Of a stretch of DNA of 30,518 nucleotides, positions 4,331 to 27,868 are shown piece after piece. Origin of the DNA: Multifurca ochricompacta (lineage: Eukaryota > Basidiomycota > Agaricomycetes > Russulales > Russulaceae); contig WTXG01000365.1 in assembly GCA_022496185.1 (NCBI GenBank), positions 1-30,518 of the forward strand, given 5' to 3'. The notes beneath the pieces are model-generated. The model worked only from the letters and a program-made list of their open reading frames with translations, was not told where the DNA came from and did not search any database. The position numbers and the translations under genes were made by a program. Within the stretch, counting starts at the first letter, position 1, and every line of letters starts with the position of its first letter.

Positions 4331-4410
4331 GGACCAGCATAAAGCGGCTTTCAAAACCAACCAAGGGCTATTTGAGCCAAACATTATGTTCTTTGGCCTC
4401 ACCAACTTGC
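4331..4410 (+). pseudogene. pol: GY1 reverse transcriptase, middle fragment
   Basis: This short fragment continues the RT reading frame after the solo [21 protein letters not shown] is followed by IMFFGLTNL. The GY2 copy has the same segment uninterrupted. It ends at 4410 where copia A is inserted; the last five bases CTTGC are one half of that insertion's target duplication. The next piece of the same gene is at 15066-15138. Confidence 0.85.
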
Positions 4411-4922
4411 TGTCAAACAATCATGCTGCTGGTTATACTGACTGTGGTTAGTAGCGGTTTAGGCTAGAAAAGACAAGTAACTTCAGAGGTAGAAGAAACT
4501 CTATATTACTATACTACTGACCTAGAAAAGACAAGTACTACATAGAGCATTAGTCTAAAGGAAGTAGAGAGTAAAGTAAATGGGACTTACACTTCAGAGG
4601 TAGAAGAAACTCTGAAGTGTAAGAGACAAAACAGACACCCTTATATACCCATAGGGGCCAGGGGAAATGGTCTGTGTGCACTGGGAATAAGTCCACAAGT
4701 GCCAGACAATAAACAGTGAGGGATAAAGGCCATTGGCCAAAGAGATATCACATGCTTACTGTGCATTACTAAGTCCATCACTAATCAGCTGAGTAAGGAG
4801 AGAAGGAAGTGTAATAAAGATAACATAAAAAGTCCGATACTCCGGAATCGAATCTAATCTAATCTACAGCTGAAGCGAACCTTAGATGCCTGAAGCATCT
4901 CTAGACATGTCTTGTGTCAACA
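4411..4922 (-). repeat. Copia A 3' LTR
   Basis: 512 bp, TGTCAAACA...GTGTCAACA on the + strand, that is TGTTGACAC...TTTGACA in element sense. It carries the minus-strand TATA box in TATATAAG and the inverted repeat ACACTTCAGAG/CTCTGAAGTGT close to the presumed RNA start. Compared with the 5' LTR it differs only by transitions. Confidence 0.92.
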
Positions 4923-4932
4923 TCCCTCCATG
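4923..4932 (-). other. Copia A polypurine tract
   Basis: On the minus strand the ten bases ATGGAGGGA plus flank abut the 3' LTR. The same ATGGAGGGA precedes the 3' LTR of copia B, which supports its role as plus-strand primer. Confidence 0.7.
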
Positions 4933-5026
4933 GTGAAGGCATTGATCATAAGTGGAAATGAGTTAAATGAGCACACTGCCATTCACAATTGAATGAACAT
5001 ATCACCAGCCAGAGATCCAACTTCTT

Positions 5027-6072
5027 TTATTCCAGCACTAGTCCAAATCCAGTTACCATGAGATCAAAAGATGATCTAGGCAGAGACTTTGTAAGGCCAT
5101 CTGCTAGCATCTCTCCAGTGGGAGTTCGCACCAAGTCAATCTGGTGTGATTCTACATACTCCCTAATGGCATGGTACTTTATTGGTATGTGCTTTGATCG
5201 CCTTCCTGTGACAGGGTTTAATGCAAGATCTACTGCACCCTTATTGTCACAATGCAGTTGTATGGGTGAACTAACTTCATATCCCAATTCCTGCATAAAC
5301 GTCCTATACCACACTGCCTGATTTGAAGCCTCAGCAAGGCTCATATACTCAGCTTCAGTGGTGGACTGTGCTACTGTCTTCTGCTTCCTGGAACACCAGC
5401 TAATGGCTCCATTAGCAAGGAAAAAGACATAGCCTGAGGTGGAGTGGCAGTCCTCTTGATCTCCCCACAAGGAATCCACAAAGCCATGAAGGCCACTTCA
5501 CCATTCCCTCCAGAATAGTGCAACTTGTAGTCTTTTGTAGCATTTAGATAGGCTAAGACATACTTTGCTAGTTGCATGTGCTGCTGGGAAGGGTTGGAAG
5601 CAAATTGACTAAGGCGTGCAACAGCAAAACTAATGTTGGGTCTGCTCCCAATCTGCACCCAAAGCAGAGATCCCATTAACTGCTGATACCTCTTAATTTC
5701 AGAGGTAGATGCCTGGTCTTCAAACTTGACCAAATGAACATCCACGCCAGTGGGTAGAGGAGTATATACTGGGTTGGAATCCCCCATTCCAAACCTCTCA
5801 ACTATTGAGGATACATAGGCTGTCTGGTCGATATCCAGTGTCTTGTTAGGATGGTCCCTGGTGATGTTAACTCCAAGGTAGGACTGGATTTCGCCAAGAT
5901 CAGTCATCTCATATCAGTTAGATAGAGAGTCCTTCAGCCATTGAATCTTCTTAGTGGAGGACCCAAGTATAGTGATGTCATCAACATATAAAATGATGAA
6001 AAGTGAACCATCCCCCTCTTGGTGATGATACACATATACTCCTGCATCAGAGTACATCTGAGTGAAGCTCAG
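5027..6072 (-). pseudogene. pol: Copia A pol, C-terminal part: reverse transcriptase end and RNase H
   Basis: On the minus strand the segment starts just after the RT thumb junction broken by the solo LTR at 6073. It contains the YVDD catalytic box (about 5960-5985), then MTDLGEIQSYLGVNITRD and the copia-type RNase H (GDQEDCHSTSGYVFFL, TEAEYMSL, HCDNKGAVDLAL, KHIPIKYHAIREYVE). The frame is broken by a TGA at 5914-5916, at the same codon as in copia B, and by a one-base deletion near 5490 where copia B retains frame. The final stop is at 5027. Non-functional as it stands. Confidence 0.85.
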
Positions 6073-6585
6073 TGTTGACACAGGACGTGTCTGGAGATGC
6101 TTCAGGCATCTAAGGTTCGCTTCAGCTGTAGATTAGATTAGATTAGATCTCGGAGTATCGGACTTTTTATGTTATCTTTATTACATTTCTTTCTCACCTT
6201 ACTCAGCTGATTAGTGATGGACTTAGTAATGTGCAGTAAGCATGTGATATCTCTTTGGCCAATGGCCTTTATCCCTCTCTGTTTATTGTCTGGCACTTGT
6301 GGACTTATTCCCAGTGTGCACAGACCATTTCCCCTGGCCCCTATGGGTATATAAGGGTGTCTGTTTTGTCCTTTACACTTCAGAGTTCTTCTTCCTCTGA
6401 AGTGTAAGTCGTCTTTACTTTACTTCCTACTTTTCCTTTGACTAACACTCTCTGTGTAGATAACTTGTCTTTTAGGTCAGTAGTATAGTATTATAGAGTT
6501 CTTCTTCCTCTGAAGTATAACTTGTCTTTTAGCCTAAACCGCTACTAACCGCAGTCAGTATAACCAGCAGCATGATTGTTTGACA
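6073..6585 (+). mobile_element. Solo copia LTR inserted in copia A RT
   Basis: 513 bp, TGTTGACAC...GTTTGACA, flanked by the duplication CTCAG (6068-6072 and 6586-6590). It belongs to the same LTR family as copia A but lies in the opposite orientation and is more divergent. It keeps the TATATAAG box and the ACACTTCAGAG/CTCTGAAGTGT stem. No internal region remains, so it is a solo LTR formed by recombination after insertion. Confidence 0.92.
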
Positions 6586-6590
6586 CTCAG

Positions 6591-7902
6591 TTCATTGAGA
6601 ACTGCATGGAATTGCAAGTTCCATGCCTGGGAAGCTTGTTTGAGGCCATACAGAGCCTTCTGTAGCCTACAAACTTTGGACTCTTGTCCAGCAACAATGA
6701 AACCAACAGGTTGCTCCATATAGATCTCCTCATCCAGATCGCCATGTAGGAATGCTGATTTGACATCCATTTGGTGGATTTCCCAATCCTCAAGCGTGGC
6801 CAATGCTAACAATAGTCTAAGAGACTCAAATCTGGCTACTGGGGAGAAGGTTTCGTCAAAGTCCACCCCCTCTATTTGGGTGAACCCTTTTGCTACAAGC
6901 CTAGCATGAAAGTGTCCATCTGCTTTCAATTTAAAGACCCATTTTGACTTTACAGCCTTTCTACCTTCAGGAAGGTCTTCAAGGTGCCACACTTTAAGTT
7001 TTTCTAAGGCATCAATTTCATATTGACATGCCTCAAGCCAATCACTGGCATTATCAGACTCCATTGCTTCTTTAAAAGTAAGAGGATCCCTATAAGGAGA
7101 TCCTGCAGCATTGAGTAGATCCATCTGACCAAGTCTGGAAGAACCCTGCACAAACTCTGCATTATCCTCGTTGTAGAAGCAAGGATTCAGATGACGGTTC
7201 CAATTGGGTTGTGCAGTATCCAAGTCTAAATCATCTTGGATTGCCCTATCTCATCGTTCAGAGTGTGGACTTGTCCTCTGAAAATTAGGTTGAGGAATTC
7301 TGCCTGCAATCCTTTCTGATTTTCTGATTGCATGGGTTCTCTTGGGAGGGGAGGATGGTTCCATGACTTGTGATGGAGGGGTCTGATATGTAGTCTGAGG
7401 TTGTGTGGTGTCTACATTATGTGTGGGTGTGGTAGGCTGAGGTGGTAATTGAGGAGGTACAATGTCCTCCTGTTCCTCTTCTAGGTCTTCCTCATCTTGA
7501 GGAGCCTCAGGAACATGTGTAGCAGTTGCTGGTGGTGGCTGGACTGGGCCACCAGGTAAGGTAAATGAGCCACCTTCACTAGGTTGCTCTATAGGTTTAT
7601 CTGCTCTGCTGTCCTTCACAGAGCAGGATGGGAAGGATCTCTCATCGAATGTAACATCTCGTGAGGAGACAAGAGACTGGATATGACTATCCCAAAGTGT
7701 ATAGCCCTTAGACGTGGGCTCATATCCGACAAAGACGGCTTCCCTGGCTTTGGGATCTAGTTTACGCCACTTGCCCTCTGGAACATGATAATAGGCTTTG
7801 CAACCAAAGACCTTAAAATACGAGACATCTGGTTTGTTCCCAACCAGAAGCTCAAGTGGAGTTTTCCACTTATTAGAACAGATGGGAGTTCTGTTATATA
7901 TA
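6591..7902 (-). pseudogene. pol: Copia A pol, middle part: integrase C-terminus, linker and N-terminal RT
   Basis: Reading from 7902 down, the segment holds the end of the integrase core (YNRTPICSNKWKTPLELL), the integrase C-terminal region (FKVFGCKAYYHVPE, then VFVGYEPTSKGYTLW), and a Pro/Glu-rich linker. The RT follows, with SKWVFKLKADGHFHARLVAK, GFTQIEGVDFDETFSPVARF, QMDVKSAFLHGDLDEEIYM and ALYGLKQASQAWN. A TGA at 7251-7253 follows an intact CGA codon and is itself likely a CGA-to-TGA change. The N-terminal end is broken by the Tc1-like insertion at 7903 and the C-terminal end by the solo LTR. Copia B shows the undivided version. Confidence 0.88.
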
Positions 7903-8264
7903 CAGTGCCTCACAAAACTGAGTCAATGTTTTGCACTTTTGCACTGTTTGTTGAATATCACATCAGCCAAAACAAATATAAACAAAGTCTTGGTAGACCA
8001 TAAAAGGTACAAGATAAGGGTTATGTAATGCAACAATGATTATGTAATTTTGATCAAAACTTGTGGAGCTATGCCCATTTCAAATTGGGGACTCATTGAC
8101 TCAGTTTTGTGAGTGGGTATCAGAAATATCAGAATCTGATGCTCCACCAAATGTACAGCAACCAATCCATAATATATGGTTACCATAGTTATCTTGATAT
8201 TGATGGGACCTGGAATAGAGCTATTTAACCATGGTTTACATTCCCAGAATATTATAATTTCCCA

Positions 8265-8552
8265 ATGCACCCCACCTCCTCTGCTCAGAAAGAAAACATG
8301 CTCTCTCTGGCCTCTGAAGGTCATTCCACTCACACTATTGCCTCCAGACTCAGCCTCAGCCAGTCCACAGTCTCTAGGACACTCAGGACCCTCCTTCCCA
8401 ACCATCAGTCACCTCATTTTAGTCATCCTTCCAAGCTCTCTGCTACCTCTGAACATGCTATCATGATACAAATCACCACAGGAAAGGTTGCCAATGCTGT
8501 CCAGGCCACAAAGCACATCAATTCCATCATCCCCAACCATGTCTCTTCATAA
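8265..8552 (+). pseudogene. TE1 left arm: N-terminal Tc1 transposase fragment
   Basis: The 95-codon frame encodes the DNA-binding part of a Tc1-like transposase. There is a first helix-turn-helix (SAQKENMLSLASEGHSTHTI, with ASRLSLSQSTVSRTL) and a paired-like second helix region (ITTGKVANAVQATKHINS). It ends at a TAA just before a continuation VHWVLKQHSFKAVTKKK in the same direction. The catalytic domain is absent from this arm, because the palindrome turns back near 8687. It could at most give a truncated DNA-binding peptide. Confidence 0.7.
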
Positions 8553-8583
8553 ACTGTGCACTGGGTTCTTAAACAACATTCAT

Positions 8584-9162
8584 TCAAGGCTGTAACAAAG
8601 AAGAAAAGGCCACTACTCTCTGCAGTACATTGAAAGAAGCACTTAGCCTTTGCTTTGAAGTACAGAGAGTGGACTGTGGAGGACTGGCATCTGACCCAAA
8701 CCTGTTGATTTTGGTCTCATCTGACCAAATCACCCTCTTCCAGTCCTCCATAGTCCAGTTTTGGTACTTCAAAGCAAAGGCTAAGTGCTTCTTGCAATGT
8801 ACTGCAGAGAGTAGTGGCCTTTTCTTCTTTGTTACAGCCTTGAATGAATGTTGTTTAAGAACCCAGTGCACAGTTTATGAAGAGACATGGTTGGGGATGA
8901 TGGAATTGATGTGCTTTGTGGCCTGGACAGCATTGGCAACCTTTCCTGTGGTGATTTGTATCATGATAGCATGTTCAGAGGTAGCAGAGAGCTTGGAAGG
9001 ATGACTAAAATGAGGTGACTGATGGTTGGGAAGGAGGGTCCTGAGTGTCCTAGAGACTGTGGACTGGCTGAGGCTGAGTCTGGAGGCAATAGTGTGAGTG
9101 GAATGACCTTCAGAGGCCAGAGAGAGCATGTTTTCTTTCTGAGCAGAGGAGGTGGGGTGCAT
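8584..9162 (-). pseudogene. TE1 right arm and loop: truncated Tc1 transposase
   Basis: The minus-strand mirror of the left arm gives the same 95-codon N-terminal frame (9162-8875). A stop follows, then a second stretch (8871 downward) with VTKKKRPLLSAVHCKKHLAF, ALKYQNWTMEDWKRVIWSDE and TKINRFGSD. Family knowledge places this last motif at the first catalytic Asp of Tc1 transposases. Beyond the loop the frame enters antisense sequence of the other arm and loses homology. The transposase is therefore cut off after its first catalytic residue. Confidence 0.72.
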
Positions 9163-9526
9163 TGGGAAATTATAATATTCTGGGAATGTAAACCATGGTT
9201 AAATAGCTCTATTCCAGGTCCCATCAATATCAAGATAACTATGGTAACCATATATTATGGATTGGTTGCTGTACATTTGGTGGAGCATCAGATTCTGATA
9301 TTTCTGATACCCACTCACAAAACTGAGTCAATGAGTCCCCAATTTGAAATGGGCATAGCTCCACAAGTTTTGATCAAAATTACATAATCATTGTTGCATT
9401 ACATAACCCTTATCTTGTACCTTTTATGGTCTACCAAGACTTTGTTTATATTTGTTTTGGCTGATGTGATATTCAACAAACAGTGCAAAAGTGCAAAACA
9501 TTGACTCAGTTTTGTGAGGCACTGTA

Positions 9527-10147
9527 TGACATGCTGTCTCGACAGCACACTCCCAGAAACCGAGAGACAGGCCAGCATTGTGCAACATGCTAGTGCCTTT
9601 TTCCATTATGGTTCTATTGAATCTCTCAGCCCTTCCATTCTGTTGTGGACTATATGGCATTGTAAATTTATGCTCTATGCCAAAATCTTCAAGTGTTGCC
9701 TTCAGCGCCTTGTTCACATACTCGCCACCATGATCTGTATGAAGACACTTGATTTTGTGATTAAATTTGTTTTCAAGTAGTGTCTTCAGTTTACTAAAAA
9801 CTGGTGTGAACAGATCTTTAGACTTCATTGGAACAATTAAAGCATATCTGCTATAGTCGTCCAAGAAGGTGGCAAAGTATAGATTCCCTTGTATTGAACT
9901 GCACTGCAAGGGGCCTACAAGATCACTATGAAAAATTTCAAGGGGGGCTGATGCGCACTTTGAAGATGGGGGAAATGGAAGACAATGGGACTTGCCCATT
10001 TCACAGCCATAACATGGCTTGTCTTCCACTTGGCTATTATTAATTTTGAGGCCTTTAACCGCCTCAGGAGCATATCTTTTCAGGGCTTCTTTTGACATAT
10101 GGCCCATTCTTTGATGCCAGATTTCAAGTGAGGCAGATGCAGATGTA
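9527..10147 (-). pseudogene. pol: Copia A pol: integrase zinc-binding and core domains
   Basis: On the minus strand this segment starts at the pre-integrase motif (LEIWHQRMGHMSKEALKRY, then CYGCEMGKSHCLPFP) and covers most of the rve core. The catalytic positions are visible as HSDLVGP (first Asp), HTDHGGEYVN (second Asp) and SPQQNGRAERFNRT (Glu). The second motif has His where copia B keeps Arg, consistent with CpG decay. The fragment is bounded by TE2 on its N-terminal side (TA at 10146-10147) and TE1 on its C-terminal side (TA at 9525-9526); removing both gives a continuous frame. Confidence 0.88.
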
Positions 10148-10465
10148 CAGTAGCCCACAAAACCATTCCAATGTTTGGCCACCCTGAAGAGATTGACCTA
10201 CCACACAATGAGCATAATTTCCAAAATTAGTAGAAATTAGTAGATGATAGTGTAGCATCTAAGCTTCAATTAGAGCCTATAATAATGTCAATTGGATCAG
10301 TGGTTCATGATATATAAAATGTTTTGTGAGGCATTATCATTGGAACAGTTTTGTGGCCAACATGTGAGATGACAAAACCGGTATCTGGTGGTCATGGGAA
10401 TGCATTGACAGTCATGTGACAATGTTTAATAAGTTGAACACACACCAAATAATCATCAAGAACAC

Positions 10466-10840
10466 TTGCTTCTTACCATGCATGCCCTCTCTGCTGCCAA
10501 AAGGACTCACATCATCTCCCTCCTCACTTCAGGCAAATCTGCCCATAAAGTGTCAACTATGACTGGCCATGGCACTATTATCATCTCAAGATGGGTCATA
10601 AATACTGCCCTTACCATCCCAAGTCAAATGGAGGGAGACCAAGGAAGCTGACAGAGAGAAATGCTCAGCATGCTGTTTGCCTTATCTCCTCTGGCAGGGC
10701 AGACACAGATGTGGAAGTGACTAGAGCACTTCAGAAGTTGTTAATGGGTTCCTCTATCAACATAATATGCCCATCCATCCTCCCATCAAGTTTTCAAGCC
10801 ATAACTGGCCCCTCCCATATCATACACCCCCATTCCATCA
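10466..10840 (+). pseudogene. TE2 left arm: Tc1 transposase N-terminal fragment, frameshifted
   Basis: The frame from 10466 encodes a helix-turn-helix start (ALSAAKRTHIISLLTSGKSA). After about 10590 the homologous reading moves to another frame, giving HPKSNGGRPRKLTERN and then VCLISSGRADTDVEVTRALQ, the second DNA-binding subdomain with the GRPR-type linker typical of Tc1 transposases. The change of frame implies an indel near 10590-10600. The gene stops at the palindrome centre before any catalytic motif. Confidence 0.68.
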
Positions 10841-10842
10841 TA

Positions 10843-11061
10843 AGTGCAATAGGCCACAAAACCAATTCAATACATTGCTACACAAAACATTTTATATATC
10901 ATGAACCACTGACCCAATTGACATCAGTATAGGCTCTAAGTGACACTTAGATGATACAATATCATCTACCAATTTCTACTAATTTTGGAAATTATTCCTA
11001 TGGTGTGGTTGGTCAATCTCTTCAGGATGGTTAAACATTGGAATGGTTTTGTGGGTTACTG
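10843..11061. mobile_element. 219-bp MITE at the exact centre of TE2
   Basis: The segment is flanked by TA on both sides (10841-10842 and 11062-11063) and starts AGTGCAATAGGCCACAAAAC, while its other end reads inward as CAGTAACCCACAAAACCATT. These are degenerate versions of the TE2 termini. Its body matches the roughly 220-bp end modules of TE2 with scattered substitutions. It codes for nothing. It is either a related MITE that landed on the central TA of the palindrome or a leftover end produced when the palindrome formed. Confidence 0.72.
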
Positions 11062-11063
11062 TA

Positions 11064-11438
11064 TGATGGAATGGGGGTGTATGATATGGGAGGGGCCAGT
11101 TATGGCTTGAAAACTTGATGGGAGGATGGATGGGCATATTATGTTGATAGAGGAACCCATTAACAACTTCTGAAGTGCTCTAGTCACTTCCACATCTGTG
11201 TCTGCCCTGCCAGAGGAGATAAGGCAAACAGCATGCTGAGCATTTCTCTCTGTCAGCTTCCTTGGTCTCCCTCCATTTGACTTGGGATGGTAAGGGCAGT
11301 ATTTATGACCCATCTTGAGATGATAATAGTGCCATGGCCAGTCATAGTTGACACTTTATGGGCAGATTTGCCTGAAGTGAGGAGGGAGATGATGTGAGTC
11401 CTTTTGGCAGCAGAGAGGGCATGCATGGTAAGAAGCAA
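11064..11438 (-). pseudogene. TE2 right arm: mirrored Tc1 transposase fragment
   Basis: The same two partial frames as in the left arm occur on the opposite strand with identical peptides (11438-11253, and 11313 downward), including the same frameshift. Identity of a disabling mutation in both arms shows that the palindrome formed, or was homogenised, after the transposase had already been broken. Confidence 0.7.
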
Positions 11439-11758
11439 GTGTTCTTGATGATTATTTGGTGTGTGTTCAACTTATTAAACATTGTCACATGACTGTCAAT
11501 GCATTCCCATGACCACCAGATACCGGTTTTGTCATCTCACATGTTGGCCACAAAACTGTTCCAATGATAATGCCTCACAAAACATTTTATATATCATGAA
11601 CCACTGATCCAATTGACATTATTATAGGCTCTAATTGAAGCTTAGATGCTACACTATCATCTACTAATTTCTACTAATTTTGGAAATTATGCTCATTGTG
11701 TGGTAGGTCAATCTCTTCAGGGTGGCCAAACATTGGAATGGTTTTGTGGGCTACTGTA

Positions 11759-13104
11759 TGGATACTATTTAGGACATGTTTGCCTAGTACCCAATACAAT
11801 TTGCCAAACTTCCATGCTTCTGCTATGATGTTATCACCATATTTTATAGTCGCCTTCTTATTATCAAAGAACACAGTTGCCCCTTTTTCTACTAGGGCAC
11901 TGGCGGAGAGTATTTTATGTCCTCCAGGCATGTGGAGCACATCACTCAGTTCCAAGTCAAAACCTTGATCTGTCCTGATTACCACAGTGCCAACTCCACT
12001 TGTTTTGACTATGGAGTTGTCACCTAGTGATACCTCATGGGTGGTGTCAACTTTATATGTGTCAAAGTCTTCAAGGTTTGGACTGAAATGTGCTGTTGCT
12101 CCACTATCAAGCATCCAATAATCTGAGTTGATGTCCAGATTATAGGTGTGAACATAAAGGCGAATGCGAGGTGCTTCTTGCACCTCCTCTATTTTGCCAC
12201 TACCATTTACTATGGTGGCTATAGTATGTACATGTTGGGCCTCAGCCCTCTTCTTGTTCCTTGCCTTGCCCTTTTTGGCATTTTCCAGGTCCTTCTTCTT
12301 CTTTGCACAAGCATTGGACTTGTGTCCAGGCTTTTGGCAATAGAAGCAGACCACCCCTTGTGAACCAGGGGCAGCAGCAGGAAGTGGTGATAAATTTATA
12401 TTTTTTGGTTTTGATTTGACAGGTGCTGCCTTAGATAGGACTGCACTACCACTTCCCGAGGGACCTGCCAGGCAACTTTCCTCATTTAGGAACCTTTGCA
12501 CAAGGTCCTGAGGAGAAAGTCGCTCTGGATCGCCAGAGGCCAGTATGGAGCTGGCAATGGCACTGTAGGAGTCTGGGAGAGCTTTTAATAATATGAAGCT
12601 CATCTGGAGGTCATTGACCTCCATCTCATTCTCCCTAATGGTACTCCTGGCATCCAGAACCTTTTGTAGTTGAGTTCTGAATGACTGTCCTTCATCAAGA
12701 CAGAAGGACACCAGGGCAAGCCACAAATTATATGTGACCATGCTACCTACAGAGCCATAAAGCTGTTCCAACTTATTATACTTCTCACTAAGAGAAGGAT
12801 AATTGGCATTGGAAGCTACTTGGGAGTAGACTTCCTGGGTGACATTGAGAAAGAGGAGCCCAATCAACATTTCCTCTTCTCCCATCCATTCCCTAAGGAT
12901 GGGATCAATTACTTCCTTCTGCATTTTCTCCTTCTCCTCTTTGTCCTCTGGGAGGAGGGGCATGTCAGGATAAGGTGTAATTATGTGCCTCCTGAGCCCA
13001 TTCATCCTCAAAAGGGCATTGAAATTGGCAGACCAGACCTGCCAGTTGGAGCCATCAAGGTGCTCCATCTTGGAGGAGGGAGGGAAGACAATTGAAGACG
13101 GCAT
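11759..13104 (-). pseudogene. gag-pol: Copia A gag and protease (5' part of the polyprotein)
   Basis: The minus-strand frame begins with ATG at 13104 (MPSSIVFPPSSKMEHLDGSN). It contains the copia gag domain (about residues 10-230, with SNWQVWSANFNALLRMNG and LNEESCLAGPSGSG), a CCHC zinc knuckle (CFYCQKPGHKSNAC) and the aspartic protease active site (YWMLDSGATAHF). The frame is open until the Tc1-like insertion at 11756, which cuts it between protease and integrase. The start is supported by the equivalent ATG of copia B (MSSIVFPPTFKFDKLDGSNW). Confidence 0.9.
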
Positions 13105-14536
13105 TTTTTAGATGTTTAAAAAAGTTCCTGGTTCCAAGGAGCAATTAGAACCAGTGCCCATGTCACAGTTAGGTGCGGAACTGTGTCGGGGTCGGACAGG
13201 AGCAAGTCTTCCAAGGCAAGGTTCAAAGTTACAATAGAGTCAAGATCTAGTCAAGCCCATGACAAAGTCAGAGGGCATGCGCATGAGATTCGAAGTCAAC
13301 GGCAGAGACTCTAAGTCCTGCAACAAGTTCAAGATGATGAAGGCTCTCCAAGTCACATCTTGGAGAGTTCAAGTGGGGCTCTAACTGAGAGGATTCGATG
13401 AAGTCCGAAGCACCTTTGATTGAACACAAGAGAACAGACTTAGTCTGTCTCTTCTACTTTACTGTGCTTTAAATACAGGTAGATCTAGCTATGTCATAGT
13501 AAATGGAAGGTTCTAGTACTATGATGTAGTATCTAAATGGTTGTGCAGTAGAATGAGCTAGAACTAAGGAGAATTAGGAGGGGTTAGGCCCTCAGTAAGC
13601 AAAACACCAGTGAAACATGATGTCAAGTCATTAGTAATGTCGCAGGGAGAATTCTGTCACAGCCCAGGTCTTGCTTAAGAGTGCCACCCCATACTGTGGC
13701 ACTATGCTTCAGAACCTAAGAAGGTCCTGCCTCTGTTGTGCGACTTTCTAGGTATAGTAAAGCTGTCTAATGCAATCCTGTAACTAGACATAAGCTCTGG
13801 TAGACTAGCCAGAGTGTCTAGTGTAAACAAGACTGGGAGTCATGTCATGGAGGAGCCAACTGCAAGTTCCATTAGAGACAAAGGGTGTATAGCCCTTCCT
13901 CTAATGCTGGTGGTGGAGTCCATGATTAAGCCCTAGATGATTGGGGCCATGACTGAGTAGACTATTAGGTTTCCTCTGGTGGGGCGAACCCCCACAACTT
14001 GGCAGCGAATACTTCTGCCCAGAGACAAAACCTTCTAGCTACTATGTAAAGACTATAGTAGTGCAGCCTACTTGTATCGAGCCCAAGTGTCATGGGAGTG
14101 ACTACCCATGCCTTGTTCTAGACCCTAAACTCCACATGCGGGTCACTAAACCCGGCTTACAGATAGAGCCAAGCATTGACTGGACTTAAAGCCACAAGCT
14201 TCTGGCTATAGGCCTACTAAAGCTATCTATGGGATGAAAACCCAGCTATAACTATGAAATTACTAATACCTAGTGCGCACTCAAGGAGCTTAAGATGTTT
14301 CACCCACTTAGGGTCCCTCATCATCTTTTGCAAGAACCCCAAAGGGCTAGCCAAACAGTTCAGGATGAGCAGTAAACTGCGTCATCCTGTGGGGTGTTAA
14401 GGTGCACAGACAGTAAATAAGAAGCTCACTGGAAGAAAGTGGTGGGAAAGAGTTTGAAGCTTTTTGTGAGCTTGGTGTGCAAAGCGAGTTGGGCTGTAAT
14501 ATGAACAAAGGGAATTACAGATCAGTATGAGCGGCA
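13105..14536 (-). other. Copia A untranslated leader (holding a solo LTR)
   Basis: No coding sequence is seen between PBS and gag ATG. After subtracting the 501-bp solo LTR and one target duplication the leader is about 930 bases, almost the same as in copia B, and the two align through much of their length despite many substitutions. The conservation of such a long leader suggests a role in RNA packaging, dimerisation or translation start (inference). Confidence 0.65.
13161..13661 (-). mobile_element. Solo LTR, 501 bp, in the copia A leader
   Basis: TGTCACAG...TCTGTCACA with the perfect 5-bp duplication GCCCA (13156-13160 and 13662-13666). Removing it rejoins a leader that aligns with copia B. 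A TATTTAAAG on the minus strand near 13465-13475 suggests minus orientation. Its centre resembles the decayed LTR at 27231-27863 (shared AAGAGAACAGACTTA and the following AGTCTGTCTC), so both belong to one LTR family whose coding element is not in this window. Confidence 0.88.
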
Positions 14537-14548
14537 GGGCCCATAACC
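14537..14548 (-). other. Copia A primer binding site (half-tRNA initiator Met type)
   Basis: On the minus strand GGTTATGGGCCC directly follows the 5' LTR. It is complementary to the anticodon-loop region of initiator methionine tRNA (GGGCCCAUAACC), not to a tRNA 3' end. This half-tRNA priming is established for Drosophila copia and related elements. Confidence 0.8.
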
Positions 14549-15060
14549 TGTCAAACAATCATGCTGCTGGTTATACTGACTGTGGTTAGTAGTGGTTTAG
14601 GCTAGAAAAGACAAGTAACTTCAGAGGTAGAAGAAACTCTATATTACTATACTACTGACCTAGAAAAGACAAGTACTACATAGAGCATTAGTCTAAAGGA
14701 AGTAGAGAGTAAAGTAAATGGGACTTACACTTCAGAGGTAGAAGAAACTCTGAAGTGTAAGAGACGAAACAGACACCCTTATATACCCATAGGGGCCAGG
14801 GGAAATGGTCTGTGCGCACTGGGAATAAGTCCACAAGTGCTGGACAATAAACAGCAAGGGATAAAGGCCATTGGCCAAAGAGATATCACATGCTTACTGT
14901 GCATTACTAAGTCCATCACTAATCAGCTGAGTAAGGAGAGAAGGAAGTGTAATAAAGATAACATAAAAAGTCCGATACTCCGGAATCGAATCTAATCTAA
15001 TCTACAGCTGAAGCGAACCTTAGATGCCTGAAGCATCTCTAGACATGTCTTGTGTCAACA
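14549..15060 (-). repeat. Copia A 5' LTR
   Basis: 512 bp, followed on its right by the CTTGC duplication (15061-15065). It differs from the 3' LTR at seven bases: C/T at GTAG(C/T)GGTTT, A/G at GAGAC(A/G)AAAC, T/C at TGTG(T/C)GCAC, and reciprocal CA/TG pairs at two former CG sites (CCAGAC/CTGGAC and AGTGAGG/AGCAAGG). Confidence 0.92.
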
Positions 15061-19022: not shown

Positions 19023-19525
19023 TGTTGAACACAGAAGATGTTCGGTGATGCTTCAGGCATCAGGTGATTAGATTAGCTACTTTGTAGATTAGATTAGATA
19101 CCGGAGTTTCGGACTATTTACATTATCATTATTACTTTCTTTCTCACATTCCGCAGTAGCTGACTGATGCACCATGTAACATGTGATTTCTGTATTGGCC
19201 AATGGCCTTTGTCCCTCATGTTTATTGTTTGGACTTTGTCCGGCACTTGTGGACTTATTCCCAGTGCACAGACCATCCCTTGAAGAGTATATAAGGGTGT
19301 CTGTTTCGTCCCCTACACTTCAGAGTTTCTTCTACCTCTGAAGTGTAAGTCGTCCTCTCTACTATCTTCATTACCTTAAGACTAACTTGTTATATAGAAC
19401 TTGTCTTCGTCTAGGTATGTAGTATAGTATAATAGAGTTTCTTCTACCTCTGAAGTAACTTGTCTTCGTCTAGCCTAACCCGCTAACCTCACAGTCAGTA
19501 TGCTGCGCCTCATGCCTGTTTCACA
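19023..19525 (+). repeat. Copia B 5' LTR
   Basis: 503 bp, TGTTGAACACAG...CTGTTTCACA. It carries the promoter and the stem-loop described separately and differs from the 3' LTR only at 19043. Confidence 0.95.
19288..19346 (+). promoter_or_regulatory. Copia B LTR promoter: TATA box and start-site stem-loop
   Basis: TATATAAG (19288-19295) is followed about 20 bases later by a perfect 11-bp inverted repeat ACACTTCAGAG (19315-19325) / CTCTGAAGTGT (19336-19346) with a 10-base loop. The distance from TATA puts the stem at or just after the expected RNA start, so it would form the very 5' end of the transcript and be repeated in R at the 3' end. The same stem is kept in copia A, the solo LTR at 6073 and LTR C'. 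Confidence 0.7.
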
Positions 19526-19537
19526 GGTTATGGGCCC
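19526..19537 (+). other. Copia B primer binding site (half-tRNA initiator Met type)
   Basis: GGTTATGGGCCC immediately follows the 5' LTR and is identical to the copia A site. It is complementary to the anticodon loop of initiator Met tRNA, as in Drosophila copia. Confidence 0.82.
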
Positions 19538-20460
19538 TGGCCACGCTTTACTGATCTGTCACTCTTTTTGATCAGTCCATAACAACCTTCTTCAAGCTCA
19601 CACAAGCTTCAAGACTCCTCTCCCAATCAGTCTTCTTTGTGAGCTTCGATTTCTTTTCCTTTGCCCTTAACTGTCCACAAGGTGGTGCGCTTTATGTGCC
19701 CACCTTGATCTGTCTGGCTAGTCCCTCAGGGGATTCTTGCAAGAGGTGATGAGGGACCCTAAGCGGGTGAAACACCTTGAGTTCCTCATGTGCGCTCTAA
19801 GTAAATAGTATTCATAGTTATAGCTGGGTTTTCGTCCCATCCATAGACTTAGTAGGCCACTTGCCCAGAAGGCTTGAGGCTATAGGTTCAGTTAATGCTT
19901 GGCTCAATCCGTAAGCCAGGTTTAGCGACCTGCAGGTAGAGTTTAGGGTCTAGAACAAGGCATGGGTAGTCACTCCCATGACGCTTGGGCTCGATACAAG
20001 TAGGCTTGAACTACTATAGTATTTACACAGTAGCTAGAGGGTTTTGTCTCTAGGCAGAAGTACCCGCTGCTTTTATTGGGGGTCCGCCCCAACTAGAGGA
20101 AACCTAATAGTCTACTATAGTCATGGCCCCAATCATCTAGGGCTTAATCATGGACTCCACCACCAGCACTAGAGGAAGGGCTCTATACCCTTTGTCTCTA
20201 GTGGAACTTGCGGTTGGCTCCTCCATGACATGACTCCCCTTCTATTTACACAGTATCCGCCTGATGTGGCCTTGGGATCTGTTGTAGAATGGGGTTAGAC
20301 AGCCTACTATACTACTTAGAAGTCGCACATCAGAGGCAGGACTTTTTAAGTTCTGAAGCATAGCGCCACAGAGTGGATGGGCCCTCTTCAATGAGACCTG
20401 GACAACTGGTTCTAACTGCTCCTTGGAACCAGGATCAACCTTTTTTACAAAATCATCTCA
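19538..20460 (+). other. Copia B long untranslated leader
   Basis: 923 bases with no convincing coding sequence. It aligns with the copia A leader over several blocks (for example AGGGCTTAATCATGGACTCC near 20140 and its counterpart near 13920), and its length is conserved. Several short ATG-initiated frames precede the gag ATG, which makes simple scanning from the cap unlikely (inference). Confidence 0.65.
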
Positions 20461-23400
20461 ATGTCTTCCATCGTCTTCCCCCCCACTTTCAAGTTCGACA
20501 AACTTGACGGCTCCAACTGGCAGCAGTGGTCAGTGTCCTTCACTGCCCTGCTTAGGATCAATGGAATGAAAAGGCACATCACGCATGATGCCCCTGAGTT
20601 CCTGAATCCTCCGAAGCCAGAAGATGGAGAAAAGGATGACGATTATGCCAAGCGCTTTACGCTTTGGTCTGAGCCTATGTACCATGAATGGAATAGGGTG
20701 GAGGAAGTCCTCATGGGAGTTCTGGTGATGGTCACATCGCCAGAAACATACTCCCAAATTGCCTCAGACAGAACTTACCCGTCTGTCAATGCCAAGTATG
20801 AGCGTTTAGAATCGCTCTATGGCTCAGTAGGTAGCATGGCCACCTACAACTTGTGGTGTTCTGTCTCCTCTTTCCGCTTGGAAGAGGGCAAACAATTCAG
20901 ACCCCAGTTGCAGCGTGTGTTGGATGTGAGGAGTACCCTCAAGGAAAATGGGATGGAGATCTCAGATCTCCAGATGAGCTTTATTTTGCTCCAATCCCTA
21001 CCTCCATCCTACTCAGCCATTGCTGGCTCAATCCTGGCGTCAGGTCCTCCTGACCGCCTTTCCCCTCAGGACCTTGTACAAAGGTTCCTAAATGAGGAAA
21101 GCCGACTTGCCGGCCCCGCAGGAAGTGGTGTTGGGGCTGCCCTTAACAAGGCAGCCCATGTCAACAAAAACAAAAACAAAAAACAAGTATCTTTCACGCC
21201 ACTACCTGCAGGTGCATCATCGTCCAATGATGTCACCTGCTTCTATTGCCAGAAGCCGGGCCACAAGGCAAATGAATGTCGGCAAAGGAAACAGGACAGA
21301 GCCAATGCTGATGCAGGCAAAAAGGGCAACAAGAGGAAGGGGCAAGGCCCCAGTGTACATAATAACTCCACACAAGTAGCTACCGTAATTAATGGTAGCG
21401 GCAGAATACAGGAGGTGCATGAGACACCTCGCATTTCACTTTATATGATGACCACAAATACGCAAGAAGTCGATGATGGCAGCAATCCTTGGATGATGGA
21501 CAGTGGAGCCACCACTCATTTTACACCATACTTAGACGATTTCTCTGAGTATTACCCTCACAAGGGGCACTCGGTGACAATTGGTGATGGTTCAGTAGTC
21601 CAAGTCGAAGGGACAGGCAAAGTTATACTCAAAACTCGAAACAACTACGAGTTAGAGTTAAATAACGTCTTCTATATGCCTGGTAGTGAAAGAATACTAT
21701 CGACTAGCTGCATCACAGACAAAGGCGGATCAGTGGAGTTCTCTCCATCTGAGGTCAAAATAAAGTATAATAATGCAATTATAGCGGAAGGTGTCAAGGC
21801 TATGGGACTCTATTGGGTCTTTGGGAAAACAATGCAGAATCTAAATACTGCCTCCCACAAATCTGCATCAACTAGCCTTGACACTTGGCATTTGCGTATG
21901 GGTCATATGTCAAAAGAGGCCCTCAAAAGACATGCTCCTAAGGCCGTAAAAGGCCTTAGTATAGATAATAGCCAAGTGGAAGACAAGCCGTGTTATGGCT
22001 GTGAAATGGGAAAATCACACCGTCTTCCATTCCCTCCCTCTCAAAAGAGAGCTTCAGCACCCTTGGAAGTCATTCATAGTGACCTAGTTGGTCCTCTGCA
22101 ATGTACTTCAATACAAGGGAACCTATACTTCGCCACTTTCATAGATGACTTTAGCAGAACTGCTCTAGTTGTTGCTATGAAAGCAAAAAGTGATTTTACC
22201 TCGACGTTCTGTAATGTTAAGGCATTCTTGGAAAATAAAACAGACAAGAAAATAAAGACCTTACACACAGACCGAGGTGGCGAATTCGTCAATAGGGAGC
22301 TGAAGTCTATACTTGAGCAGGCTGGCATAGAGCATAAATTGACAATGCCATATTCCCCACAACAGAATGGAAGGGCTGAAAGGTTCAACAGAACCATTAT
22401 GGAAAAGGCCACCAGTATGTTGCATCATGCTGGTCTTTCCCTTGGTTTCTGGGAATGTGCAGTGCGGACAGCCTGTCACATATACAATAGAACGCCTATC
22501 CGCTCTAATAAGTGGAAGACACCGCTTGAGCTTCTGGATGGGGACATTCCAGATGTCTCTTACTTTAGAATATTTGGCTGCTTAGCCTATTATACTGTCC
22601 CAGAGGATAAAAGACGTAAACTGGATCACAAAGCCAGGGAGACAGTTTTTGTCGGGTATGCACCCCAGTCTAAAGGATATCTTCTTTGGGACATGCACAC
22701 TCGATCCTTCGTATTGTCAAGAGATGTGACATTTGATGAAGGGTCCTTCCCATCCAACCTTGCCAAGGACAGCAAGGGAAAACAAAAGGAAAAAGTTACG
22801 CCTTTTGTACTAGAAGTTGAGAGGCCTGTCCAGCCTCTACCAGCAATAGCCACAGTTCCTCAGGCTCCTGAAGACAAGGACGCCGAGGTTGAGGAACGGG
22901 AGGTAGTGGAACCTCCTCAAGTAAATCCTGAGCCTACCACACCCGAAAATGAACTTGATACACACGATCAAACTATCTATCAGACGCCCCCATCCCAAAT
23001 CATGGAACCATCTGAACTCCCTGAAAGAACTCGTGCAAAGAGACAGTCTAAGAAAAAGACTGGTGGCAAAATTCCCCAACCAGTATTTACTAGGGAAAGC
23101 CCACGCTCTCAGCAACGTGACCAGGCTGTGCAGGAAGATTTAGATCTTGATACTGCCCGTCCTAGACGCTCACGCCGCATGAATCCTCGATTTTATAATG
23201 AGGATAATGCAGAGTTCGTACAAGGTTCCTCCAGACTTGGGCACATGGAGTTGCTATATGCCGCAGGTGTCTCTTATAGAGACCCCCTGACTTTTCAGGA
23301 GGCAATGCAGTCTGACAATGCCAGTGAATGGCTTGAAGCATGTAAATATGAAATTGATGCTTTAGATAAACTCGATGTGTGGCGCCTTGAGGATCTTCCA

Positions 23401-24824
23401 AAAGGAAGAAAGGCTGTCAAATCAAAATGGGTTTTTAAACTGAAACCAGATGGACGGTTTCGTGCTAGGCTCGTGGCAAAAGGTTTCACTCAAGTAGAAG
23501 GAGTGGACTTCGACGAAACATTCTCACCAGTCGCCAGATTCGAATCACTTAGATTATTACTAGCGTTAGCTATGCTAGAGGATTGGGAAATCCACCAAAT
23601 GGATGTCAAATCGGCATTCCTACATGGCAATCTGGATGAAGAGATTTATATGGAGCAACCAGCTGGTTTCGTCGTTGCTGGTCAAGAGTCCAAAGTTTGT
23701 AGGCTACAAAAAGCATTATATGGCCTCAAACAAGCCTCCCGAGCATGGAATCTACAATTTCATGCAGTTCTTAATGAACTGGGCTTCACTCGGACGTACT
23801 CTGATGCAGGAGTATACGTGTTTCATCAAAAGGAGGAGGATGATTCACTTTATGTCATTCTCTATGTAGATGACATTACTATACTTGGGTCTTCCAATGA
23901 TAAGATAACGTGGCTGAAGTCAGCTCTATCTAATTGATATGAGATGACTGACTTGGGAGAAATCCAGTCATACCTTGGAGTTAACATCACCAGGGATCGT
24001 CCTAACAAGACACTGGAGATTGATCAAGCAGCCTACGTTTTATCTATTATTGAGAAGTTTGGGATGAGGGATTCCAACCGAGTATATACTCCTCTTCCCT
24101 CTGGCGCTGATGTACATCTGGTCAAGTTTGAAGGCCAGGCATCTACTTCTGAGATAAAGAAGTACCAACAGTTGATGGGGTCACTGCTATGGGTGCAGAT
24201 TGGAAGCAGACCCGACATCAGTTTTGCTGTGGCGCGCCTTAGTCAATACGCTTCCAACCCCTCACAAGATCACATGCGACTTGCAAAATATGTCTTAAAA
24301 TATCTTAATAGTACAAAAGACTGCAAGTTGCGGTATTCTGGAGGGAATGGAGAGAGTGGCCTTCATGGGTTTGCAGATTCCTCGTGGGGAGATCAGGAGG
24401 ACTGCCGCTCTACTTCAGGCTACGTGTTTTTCTTAGCAAATGGCGCTATTTCATGGTGTTCCAGAAAGCAAAAACAGTAGCACAGTCCACCACTGAAGCT
24501 GAATATATGAGCCTCTCAGAGGCTGCAAATCAGGCAGCGTGGTATAGGACTTTCATGGAAGAATTAGGGCATGAGGTATCCTCCCCTATTCTACTCCACT
24601 GTGACAATAAGGGTGCCGTGGATTTGGCATTAAACCCAGTCACAGGAAGGCGGTCAAAGCATATACCGATCAAGTACCATGCCATTAGGGGGTACATTGA
24701 ATCGCACATAATTGAGTTAGTGCGAACCCCCACTGGTGAGATGCTGGCAGATGGCTTTACTAAGTCTCTACCAAGAGCATCGTTCGAAGCCATGGCAAAC
24801 GGACTTGGACTTATGCTGGAATGA
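20461..24824 (+). pseudogene. gag-pol: Copia B gag-pol polyprotein, nearly intact
   Basis: The frame opens with ATG at 20461 and is open for 1158 codons. Domains in order: copia gag (about 10-235), CCHC knuckle CFYCQKPGHKANEC from residue 260, aspartic protease with active Asp 347 (MMDSGATTHF), pre-integrase motif (WHLRMGHMSKEA, about 476), integrase core with D541, D604 and E640 (Asp-Glu spacing 35), a Pro/Glu-rich linker, and RT with the YVDD box at 1135-1138. A TGA at codon 1159 (23935-23937) follows, then the same frame runs on through MTDLGEIQSYLGV into RNase H. A one-base deletion in the A-run at 24470-24474 shifts the last part (TEAEYMSL, HCDNKGAVDLAL) into another frame, ending at 24824. 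The full product would be about 1450 residues. Unless the TGA is read through, this copy makes no RNase H. Confidence 0.92.
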
Positions 24825-25079
24825 GAAGAGCTGGAATCTGGAGACTTTGTATACCTTGTATACCAGTTTCACTTTCCCACCATGCCACATGAGCACGTTC
24901 TCGACCTCGAGAGTGATGCAAGAGGTGTGTAGACTTGCATAAGCGAATCTACAACTCGTATGCAAAACTCACAAAGAGAGTTAGAGAAGTTGGATCTCTG
25001 GCTGGCGATATGCTCATTTAATTGTGATGGCAGTGTGCTCATCCAACTCGTTTCACATCCATGACCAGATGCCTTCAGC
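24825..25079 (+). other. Copia B 3' untranslated segment
   Basis: A 255-bp stretch between the end of pol and the polypurine tract. I see no gene in it. Confidence 0.7.
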
Positions 25080-25088
25080 ATGGAGGGA
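25080..25088 (+). other. Copia B polypurine tract
   Basis: ATGGAGGGA abuts the 3' LTR, the same sequence as in copia A. Confidence 0.75.
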
Positions 25089-25591
25089 TGTTGAACACAG
25101 AAGATGTTTGGTGATGCTTCAGGCATCAGGTGATTAGATTAGCTACTTTGTAGATTAGATTAGATACCGGAGTTTCGGACTATTTACATTATCATTATTA
25201 CTTTCTTTCTCACATTCCGCAGTAGCTGACTGATGCACCATGTAACATGTGATTTCTGTATTGGCCAATGGCCTTTGTCCCTCATGTTTATTGTTTGGAC
25301 TTTGTCCGGCACTTGTGGACTTATTCCCAGTGCACAGACCATCCCTTGAAGAGTATATAAGGGTGTCTGTTTCGTCCCCTACACTTCAGAGTTTCTTCTA
25401 CCTCTGAAGTGTAAGTCGTCCTCTCTACTATCTTCATTACCTTAAGACTAACTTGTTATATAGAACTTGTCTTCGTCTAGGTATGTAGTATAGTATAATA
25501 GAGTTTCTTCTACCTCTGAAGTAACTTGTCTTCGTCTAGCCTAACCCGCTAACCTCACAGTCAGTATGCTGCGCCTCATGCCTGTTTCACA
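25089..25591 (+). repeat. Copia B 3' LTR
   Basis: 503 bp, identical to the 5' LTR except for T in place of C at 25109. The base lies in a CG in the 5' copy, so the change fits deamination. Confidence 0.95.
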
Positions 25592-25596
25592 CTGCT

Positions 25597-26676
25597 TTCG
25601 AATAGTCGTGGTCAGTGATGGTTAGGATTGAATCGAACCCTCTGGAAGTGGGGAGTTTAATGATGAAGTCCATGGCGATAGTCTGGAATGGTTGTGATGC
25701 CGTTGGTGTGATTGGGAATGGTGCTGGTGGGTGTGGGTGTGTATTCACTTTGTTGGCCTGGCAGTCTGCGCATCCCTTCACATACTCTTCTATGTCCTTC
25801 TTCATATTCGGCCACCAGTAGTCTCGTTTGGCAAGAGCATAGGTGTTGGCAATACCTGGATGTCCTGCAGAGGGGAGGTCATGGTGAAAATGGATCACCC
25901 CCTTCTTAATGTTGTCGCCACCGGTGACAATGAGCCGATCCCCGTCCTTCCACCACAAGCCATCAATCTTCTTCAGGTTATGTGCATCGGCCCATGCTTC
26001 GCATAGCTGCTGATTCATATTCTGCGACACTTGGGCCCATAAATCCATGTCATGAAGACTGACAACCGCTGTTTTTGTGAAGATCTCCTCAGGGAGTACC
26101 GTGATATCATTATTGTCCTCCTCGCCACCATTCAGATCTGGCTGTTGTGATAGTGCATCCGTGTGTGCATTGCAACTTCCTGCAATATGTTTCAACACGA
26201 AATTGTATTCTTCCAGCTCTAGAACCTCGTGGGCAACTCGCCGACTGATCTTGTGGGGCTCCTTCCAGTAGAGTAGGTTGGAGTGGTTGGTGTGAATAAT
26301 GGTTTTATGAGGGGTTCCTGCTAGGTATGGTCGCCAGTGCTGTAGTGCTTTCACAATGGCTAGTAATTCTCTATCCCAAATATCATAATTTTGCTCTGCT
26401 GGCGAGAATGTTTCCGAGTAGAAGGCGACTGGGTGAAGCAACCCGGCCGCATCTCATTGATTCAACACCGTGCCATTGGCAAAGTGAGATGCATCGACTT
26501 CTAGTTCAAAAGGTTTTTCTAAATCTGGCTGTAGAAGAACCAGCTCTGAGCTGATGATGTCACGGATTTGCTCAAAAGCGCGTTGCTGTTCCTCTGCCCA
26601 CTGCCATGGCATGTCTTTCTTTAATTGTCACAGCCAGGTCTCTGCTGTGTCAAGTGTCGTTCTGGTCAAGCCCCTT
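25597..26676 (-). pseudogene. pol: GY2 pol: RNase H, integrase zinc finger and start of integrase core
   Basis: On the minus strand the segment begins near 26676 (TRTTLDTAETWL, then QLKKDMPWQWAEEQQRAFEQ), the RT-RNase H connection. RNase H follows (FELEVDASHFANGTVLNQ, with ELLAIVKALQHWRPYLAG), then the HHCC zinc-binding domain (HFHHDLPSAGHPG ... GCADCQANK) and the first part of the integrase core (FQTIAMDFIIKLPTSRGFDS). TGA codons at 26628-26630 and 26454-26456 interrupt it. It ends at the copia B insertion (25592) and is continued at 19022. The N-terminal junction with the decayed LTR is approximate. Confidence 0.85.
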
Positions 26677-26695
26677 CAAGATATGGAGTGCCTGC

Positions 26696-26917
26696 TGTTG
26701 ACACAGTCAGGTGTCGCACAATGCAACTCTGCATGACCTCATATAGGAGGTTGTGTACCACTATGAACCTGAGGCCGTGTAGCTCAGTGGTTTAGAGCAC
26801 CGGACCCGGCTTGTCCAGAGGTCTTGGGTTCAATCCCCAACGTGGCCATTTCTTTTCTAGTGTGTGAGCCAGGGTCCTGTTTAAGGTCCCTTGATCGGGG
26901 TGCGTGTTTAGCCAACA
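26696..26917 (+). repeat. TRIM left LTR
   Basis: 222 bp starting TGTTGACACAGTCAGGTGTC and ending TTTAGCCAACA. It includes a short AT-rich box (ATATAGG, 26741-26747), about 30 bases before the tRNA-like sequence. No base differs from the right LTR. Confidence 0.92.
26773..26847 (+). tRNA. tRNA-derived sequence in TRIM left LTR (pseudo-tRNA)
   Basis: It folds as a cloverleaf. The acceptor stem GGCCGTG pairs with CGTGGCC using two G-U pairs, the D stem is GCTC/GAGC, and the T stem TTGGG/CCCAA encloses TTCAATC. The anticodon arm is weaker (CGGAC with GTCCA, one mismatch). Its loop CCGGCTT would give anticodon GGC but lacks the universal U33, so it is probably not a working tRNA. Box A is TAGCTCAGTGG (26780-26790) and box B GGTTCAATCCC (26827-26837), both close to Pol III consensus. 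A TTTT at 26853-26856 could end transcription, so the RNA would be tRNA-sized unless read through. Confidence 0.7.
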
Positions 26918-26933
26918 TGGTAGCAGCACGTCG
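26918..26933 (+). other. TRIM primer binding site
   Basis: TGGTAGCAGCACGTCG abuts the left LTR. Its complement ends in GCTACCA, which fits the 3' end of an initiator Met-type tRNA. This differs from the half-tRNA sites of the copia elements here. Confidence 0.75.
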
Positions 26934-27008
26934 TCCACTCCGGGTCATTGGCTCCCTAGAGGGAAATTGGATAGAGTTTGCATGCACAGTTACATGTGCG
27001 TAGGGGCG

Positions 27009-27230
27009 TGTTGACACAGTCAGGTGTCGCACAATGCAACTCTGCATGACCTCATATAGGAGGTTGTGTACCACTATGAACCTGAGGCCGTGTAGCTCAG
27101 TGGTTTAGAGCACCGGACCCGGCTTGTCCAGAGGTCTTGGGTTCAATCCCCAACGTGGCCATTTCTTTTCTAGTGTGTGAGCCAGGGTCCTGTTTAAGGT
27201 CCCTTGATCGGGGTGCGTGTTTAGCCAACA
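27009..27230 (+). repeat. TRIM right LTR
   Basis: 222 bp identical to the left LTR, followed by the second CCTGC. Confidence 0.92.
27086..27160 (+). tRNA. tRNA-derived sequence in TRIM right LTR (pseudo-tRNA)
   Basis: Identical to the copy in the left LTR, offset by 313 bases, with the same A and B boxes and the same downstream TTTT. Confidence 0.7.
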
Positions 27231-27868
27231 CCTGCAAGGTCAAAACTGTCAAGGACAAGTTGGTTCAAGGATCAAGGTCAAGACTATCAAAGGTAAGTCA
27301 ATTCAGGGTGTCAAAGTGAACCACAGAGGGCCGCGGTCAGAGTTCAAGGCCCACACAAGATAAGAGGGGCACGCGTGCAAGAGGCAAGTCGAAGCAGTGG
27401 CAATAAGCCCTGCTGGAGATCTGGGGTGAAGGCTCCCTAAGTTGCAGCTTAGGGAGTTCAAGGGAATTCTGGGTGAAGCACAGTAAACCTGTATTAGATA
27501 CAAGAGAACAGACTTAAAGTCTGTCTCTCCAGTATGTACTGCTTAAATACAAGTACTCTAGTGTCTTTGTAAGTAAAGTAGAAGATTCAATATAGTAAAG
27601 TAAATGTCCATGTGAATCTCCAGTGGAGATTGAGACAGGGAAAGCAAGTGGTGTTGCACCCACTCCAAAAGCAAATGAGTGTCAGTCCAAGTCAGTCTAA
27701 GTCCGAAAATCAGATCAGATAAGAAGAGATCATCAACTCCAGTCACATGACTCGGAGTAAGAAGTCGAAACGTTGAAACAAAAGTCGAACGCGCGCGGGT
27801 CGAAAACCGTCACAAAACGTCACACGCGCGTCACAAACCGTTACATCGCAAGAAAGCGTCACATTAAT

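Follow-up and report, generated by a model that had tools for sequence, protein, structure and literature searches.

We report that a 535-bp element in the genome of the mushroom Multifurca ochricompacta is a short, non-coding LTR element carrying a tRNA-like unit in each of its two identical LTRs. It lies in a 30,518-nt stretch of contig WTXG01000365.1, the whole of which was analyzed and is called the window here. The kind is already described: TRIMs with a tRNA-like LTR sequence, fungal families included, were named Helenus, and Helenus, Cassandra and Ajax together make up TRIMp3 (Kojima, 2024, Biology 13:119, PMC10886601). We put at roughly two in three the probability that the element is a Helenus-type TRIM in which the unit is a likely internal Pol III promoter, the four Ts behind it a leaky terminator, and the RNA a substrate for copying and insertion by enzymes that an autonomous LTR element supplies.

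A TRIM of the Helenus kind

The anatomy on which the original prediction based its call of a genuine TRIM, namely identical 222-bp LTRs, a CCTGC duplication and no coding sequence, was verified (Table 1). The two LTRs are 100% identical over 222 bp each, and no open reading frame of at least 150 amino acids overlaps the 535 bp. The element is inserted in a gypsy-like stretch, and its flanks, joined with one copy of the duplication, match an unbroken gypsy copy elsewhere (locus L030) over 124 bp at 96.8%, which represents the empty site. The cloverleaf-like sequence, originally given as 75 bases (26773-26847), is recognized by both ARAGORN and Rfam and is 76 nt long (26773-26848); the covariance search proposed as a check on it gave 49.8 bits (E 1.3e-9) against the Rfam tRNA model, RF00005. 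The A and B boxes, the AT box about 30 bases upstream and the TTTT lie where they had been described. The G-rich tract TAGGGGCG is also present, as a short run that is not pure purine; the same position reads GGGGGCG in one type-B and GGGGGCA in one type-C element (types A, B and C are described below).

Table 1. Parts of the element and their positions in the window
Feature	Positions	Strand	Description
Complete LTR element	26696..27230	+	535 bp: LTR 222 bp, internal 91 bp, LTR 222 bp
5' LTR (TGTTGA...CAACA)	26696..26917	+	222 bp, same sequence as 27009-27230
3' LTR	27009..27230	+	222 bp, from sequence comparison
Target site duplication, left copy CCTGC	26691..26695	.	
Target site duplication, right copy CCTGC	27231..27235	.	
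Internal region	26918..27008	+	91 bp, without coding sequence
TATA-like box ATATAGG	26741..26747	+	26-32 nt 5' of the tRNA-like unit
tRNA-like unit, 5' LTR	26773..26848	+	76 nt, predicted internal Pol III promoter; ARAGORN and Rfam RF00005
tRNA-like unit, 3' LTR	27086..27161	+	76 nt; ARAGORN and Rfam RF00005
A box TAGCTCAGTGG	26780..26790	+	Read from sequence; present in 47/47 LTRs counted
B box GGTTCAATCC	26827..26836	+	Read from sequence; present in 47/47 LTRs counted
TTTT, 5' LTR	26853..26856	+	Proposed leaky Pol III terminator and R/U5 border
TTTT, 3' LTR	27166..27169	+	Proposed end of the genomic RNA
18-nt motif GTCCCTTGATCGGGGTGC	26886..26903	+	3' of the tRNA-like unit; common to types A and C
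Primer binding site	26918..26934	+	Complement of the host initiator tRNA-Met 3' end, CCA included, 16/17
G-rich tract TAGGGGCG	27001..27008	+	Read from sequence; PPT position, adjoins the 3' LTR

Like Helenus, the window element is short and non-coding and has a tRNA-like sequence with A and B boxes in each LTR, together with a PBS and a PPT (PMC10886601). At 535 bp it has the make-up of a TRIM (two LTRs, about 1 kb or less, non-coding), and the tRNA-derived sequence inside the LTRs, from which the Helenus name follows, is present in all 47 full LTRs of types A and B counted. Its boxes TAGCTCAGTGG and GGTTCAATCC agree with the Helenus A box (TRGCY and YGG) and B box (GGTTC), its relatives have the 5-bp duplications of fungal Helenus (28/35 perfect), and PBS and PPT both lie between the LTRs, the PPT being short and not purely purine. 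The likeness extends to several families per genome, solo LTRs and inflated tRNA gene counts (PMC10886601). Agaricomycetes are among the Helenus hosts (Agaricus bisporus, Coprinopsis cinerea and Amylostereum areolatum), whereas neither Multifurca nor a Russulaceae host is named in the main text of PMC10886601. Two further differences concern function: only several fungal families are said there to prime with a tRNA 3' end, here that of initiator tRNA-Met, and the main text does not discuss a Helenus terminator, the word occurring once, about Cassandra. Pol III transcription of Helenus is presented in that paper as a prediction, unvalidated.

The original prediction also likened the element to Cassandra, proposing a tRNA-based analogue in a fungus, and this is supported, the group being the one already known as Helenus (PMC10886601). 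Cassandra, a plant TRIM, likewise is non-coding, has a methionine PBS and bears in each LTR the gene of a small RNA together with its Pol III promoter and terminator (PMC10853983), but its LTR carries 5S rRNA where that of the window element carries a tRNA-like unit. An Rfam search of 26600-27330, with E values up to 0.1, gave no 5S rRNA match and two tRNA hits only. With tRNA-derived SINEs the element shares a tRNA-like Pol III head, and it differs from them in having two LTRs, a primer site and 5-bp duplications of the integrase type. These features indicate the copying route of LTR elements rather than that of tRNA-SINEs, which have no LTRs and whose ends are made by target-primed reverse transcription, a structure that does not fit the element. 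Among the matches listed from open-licence papers we recognized no other literature on such fungal elements, and no listed title fitted work on Multifurca transposable elements.

Copies, types and constraint on the unit

A search of the source genome with the 222-bp LTR had been proposed to decide whether the tRNA-like unit is a property of the family or of a single copy. We searched 53.8 Mb in 605 contigs and found at least 47 LTR matches at 95-100% identity among the best 40 of 259 candidates scored. Of these, 45 are full-length and therefore span the tRNA-like unit, while a variant without it could sit among the candidates beyond the best 40 of 259. The unit is thus a family property: neither a single copy nor a family with the unit absent from most members was borne out.

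Many copies with different duplications had also been expected, and were found. We merged 78 loci by hand to 37 (two duplicates were dropped afterwards), which gave 38 rows, with one locus on both strands. Three of the 38 rows were set aside for a missing LTR end or LTRs too far apart, leaving 35 LTR-bounded places. Perfect 5-bp target duplications flank 28 of the 35, all 28 different, and one more has a single mismatch. The remaining six are without a duplication; at five of them none is expected because a complete second LTR is missing, since L018, L041, L044 and both L048 copies end in internal sequence on one side, and the sixth, L027, is unexplained. Locus L048 (C122:33821-36880) holds two type-B copies head to head, with internal regions facing and one LTR kept by each.

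We distinguish three types. Complete copies of type A, the type of the window element, show 0, 0, 2, 1, 0 and 11 LTR-to-LTR differences, and those of type B show 7, 3, 1, 6 and 5; full-length LTRs of type B share 79-83% identity with that of the window element. Type C, about 223 bp in length, gave at least 41 matches among the best 40 of 215 candidates scored; it has the unit, the TTTT, the 18-nt motif and the ends in common with type A, the rest being hardly alignable. By eye, five type-C copies have 5-bp duplications (L079 TCATA, L080 GCAAG, L083 GGCAC, L109 TGGGG and L127 GGCAG). The group is well sampled, with three types in one mushroom genome, and recently active, the LTRs of the window copy being identical. 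Counted per copy over 32 type-A LTRs, 45 of the 62 changes from the column majority are CpG transitions, a pattern that cytosine methylation or a RIP-like process would be expected to leave.

The unit is far better kept between types than the sequence around it. The A box, the B box and TTTTCT are unchanged in all 47 full LTRs of types A and B counted; this box count covers 47 of 48 LTRs, and the constraint test repeated with all 48 gave the same numbers. Between types A and B, 3 of 76 columns are changed in the unit (73/76 identity) vs 38 of 149 in the flanks (Fisher p 3.6e-5), whereas within types polymorphism is the same in both (9/76 in the unit vs 17/149 in the flanks, p 1.0). The corresponding McDonald-Kreitman-like table, 3:9 vs 38:17, gives p 0.0077; the copies are related, and all these p-values are guides only. 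Between A and C, identity is 64/76 in the unit, 32/100 in the stretch 5' of it and 33/69 in the stretch 3' of it, in an alignment made without the near duplicates L110, L112, L117 and L121. The 18-nt motif GTCCCTTGATCGGGGTGC (26886-26903) is kept between A and C although most other LTR sequence outside the unit differs, and is a possible signal.

The simplest reading of this pattern is that dead copies drift freely and spreading lineages would keep the unit. Comparing variation within and between types separates promoter use from use as a host tRNA, and the result fits a promoter kept by active elements and not host tRNA genes. Conservation of the unit through gene conversion or exchange between types could look alike.

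That the units are working tRNA genes, carried by the element or used by the host, is very improbable. The 49.8-bit Rfam score and acceptor, D and T stems paired in 95-100% of cells would suit it, yet the anticodon stem is the worst helix (79%), the anticodon calls differ among relatives (Ala-GGC, Ser-GGA, Ser-AGA, Thr-AGT, Ala-AGC), and copies are as variable in the unit as elsewhere. By our own reading of the loop, the window unit also has C at position 33, which is nearly always U in tRNAs. An RNA covariation test on 17 representatives found no cloverleaf covariation above shuffles, so that selection on RNA folding itself is not supported, and at minimum energy the unit is predicted to fold into something other than a cloverleaf (z -0.93, with equally good folds in 37 of 200 shuffles). 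Among 13 host tRNA genes scored, which are part of the full set, the nearest is Ile-AAT for all three types (71-74%), followed by Thr-CGT (68-71%). By hand comparison of coordinates and flanks, 31 of 62 tRNA-model hits lie inside these elements (best 63 of 1851 candidates scored), and tRNA gene counts in such fungi are inflated, as Kojima warns (PMC10886601).

An ordinary Pol II TRIM, in which capped RNA would be made from a TATA box at about -30 and the tRNA-like unit would be no more than an old passive insert, is unlikely, even though canonical TRIMs ("TRIMp2") are taken as Pol II elements (PMC10886601) and the TATA-like ATATAGG of type A and GTATATAAGG of type B, about 30 nt before the unit, would suit Pol II. 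Type C keeps the unit with no such box seen on by-eye inspection, and a passive insert should diverge like its flanks, which is not what the A-B comparison gives. The perfectly kept A and B boxes could be explained by TFIIIC binding alone, but a unit serving mainly as a TFIIIC site (an insulator, a determinant of nuclear position or a silencing boundary), with transcription secondary, would leave the conserved TTTT directly after it unexplained, and we consider this quite improbable. The idea that a tRNA gene or tRNA-SINE landed by chance in a single retrotransposon copy has the resemblance to a tRNA in its favor and nothing beyond; the boxes recur in all 47 full type A and B LTRs counted and type C has the unit too, so that the family copies and types B and C refute it and we give it next to no credence.

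T-runs, priming and a proposed life cycle

In whole elements, one each of types A, B and C, runs of at least four Ts occur at the two terminator places only. In the 40 nt counted from the B box, T-runs reach four and no more in each of the 48 LTRs; a single T4 run is present in 47, and two in the remaining one. In type C the TTTT stands between Cs in 7/7 representatives that keep the stretch, a count made without L113, L114 and L119, which lack it. For comparison, 11 of 13 host tRNA genes are followed by a run of at least six Ts (18-57 nt read); for the other two, the 21-23 nt read contain T4 at most, and behind the host initiator gene two T4 runs precede a T8.

In budding yeast the minimal Pol III terminator is five Ts, with six needed for efficiency, and T4 is rare as a first tract and weak, though helped by an adjacent RNA fold (PMC9278858); read-through occurs at many yeast tRNA genes (PMC4937561). 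Because T4 is weak in that organism, leaky read-through would be expected at the TTTT of the element in its fungal host. T4 may also terminate well there, given the host tRNA genes with T4 only and the T4 runs of the initiator gene, the weak-T4 argument being one from yeast. The original prediction had treated the TTTT as a puzzle, a Pol III product being too short as a template unless read through, and offered an insulator, a localization element or a source of small RNA instead; read-through would be a way out, with the weakness of T4 in budding yeast on its side (PMC9278858), and is a simpler reading than those three.

The primer site holds up as the complement of a tRNA 3' end. The internal region begins with TGGTAGCAGCACGTCGT; compared with the 3' end of host initiator tRNA-Met, 16 of 17 positions agree, 12 of them contiguous. 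A type-B primer site compared has the same match, and in type C the first nine bases match, then partly. The initiator gene itself (L099, C24:473840-474010) was located with a T-loop and acceptor pattern; by our reading it has a 9-nt intron, because of which ARAGORN misnames it tRNA-His.

Two Copia elements lie in the window, one at 19023-25591 with 503-bp LTRs followed by the primer site GGTTATGGGCCCTG, and one at 4410-14840 with the same primer site. GGTTATGGGCCCTG is the complement of the anticodon arm that initiator tRNA-Met has after splicing (half-tRNA priming). Since these Copias use a different site on the same tRNA, the helper, judged from primer sequences, is probably another element. 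A Copia helper with the same primer type goes with Helenus; here, no autonomous element with the LTR-primer junction of the TRIM was found among the sites read, which are part of all sites. A search with ACATGGTAGCAG gave 23 sites: 18 in elements already seen, one in a further TRIM (C290, L100), and four that have no LTR and were rejected as partners. Of these four, three fall in loci with Copia reading frames and one in a COQ4 gene. We also rejected CACTGGTAGCATCAC (at least 12 sites, three loci examined): in neither of the two longer loci is the site enclosed by a pair of LTRs, and the one site whose surroundings were read sits among short repeats of a different sort. For TGGTAGCAGCACGTT, three sites read of at least six non-TRIM sites have a common context without an LTR end.

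Other repeats were seen along the way. Locus L108 (3456-5091) is an inverted repeat of about 1.6 kb (97%) with a reading frame on both strands, and these frames look to us like a transposase helix-turn-helix. The minus-strand Copia copy of the window contains two near-perfect inverted repeats with short centers (7900-9527 and 10146-11758), with arms of 788 nt (99%) and 697 nt (100%), either a real fold-back duplication or an assembly artefact.

The sequence shows the anatomy, the copies with their duplications, the match of the primer site, the conservation and the T-runs; Pol III use, read-through, the borders of R, priming and a helper make up the inferred part, which runs as follows. U3 would be the bases before the unit, R the unit plus TTTT (about 84 nt) and U5 the remaining LTR. 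Pol III would start at the tRNA-like unit of the 5' LTR and pass the TTTT of that LTR in part of the transcripts, and the TTTT of the 3' LTR would be the stop, yielding an RNA with R at both ends, as reverse transcription needs. Cassandra is transcribed in a comparable manner, from the 5S in its 5' LTR to the 5S in its 3' LTR (PMC10886601). The 3' end of initiator tRNA-Met would then prime first-strand synthesis at 26918, the G-rich tract at 27001-27008 may prime the second strand, and a borrowed integrase would make the 5-bp duplication. More tentatively, and at clearly less than even odds, the unit and exactly four Ts form the R region, with the weak strength of the terminator alone setting the split between tRNA-sized and genomic RNA.

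If true, a leaky T4 would define an LTR life cycle run by Pol III alone and would have been retained through the turnover of the remaining LTR, and there would be a testable answer to how a full-length retroelement RNA can come from a Pol III promoter that brings a terminator of its own.
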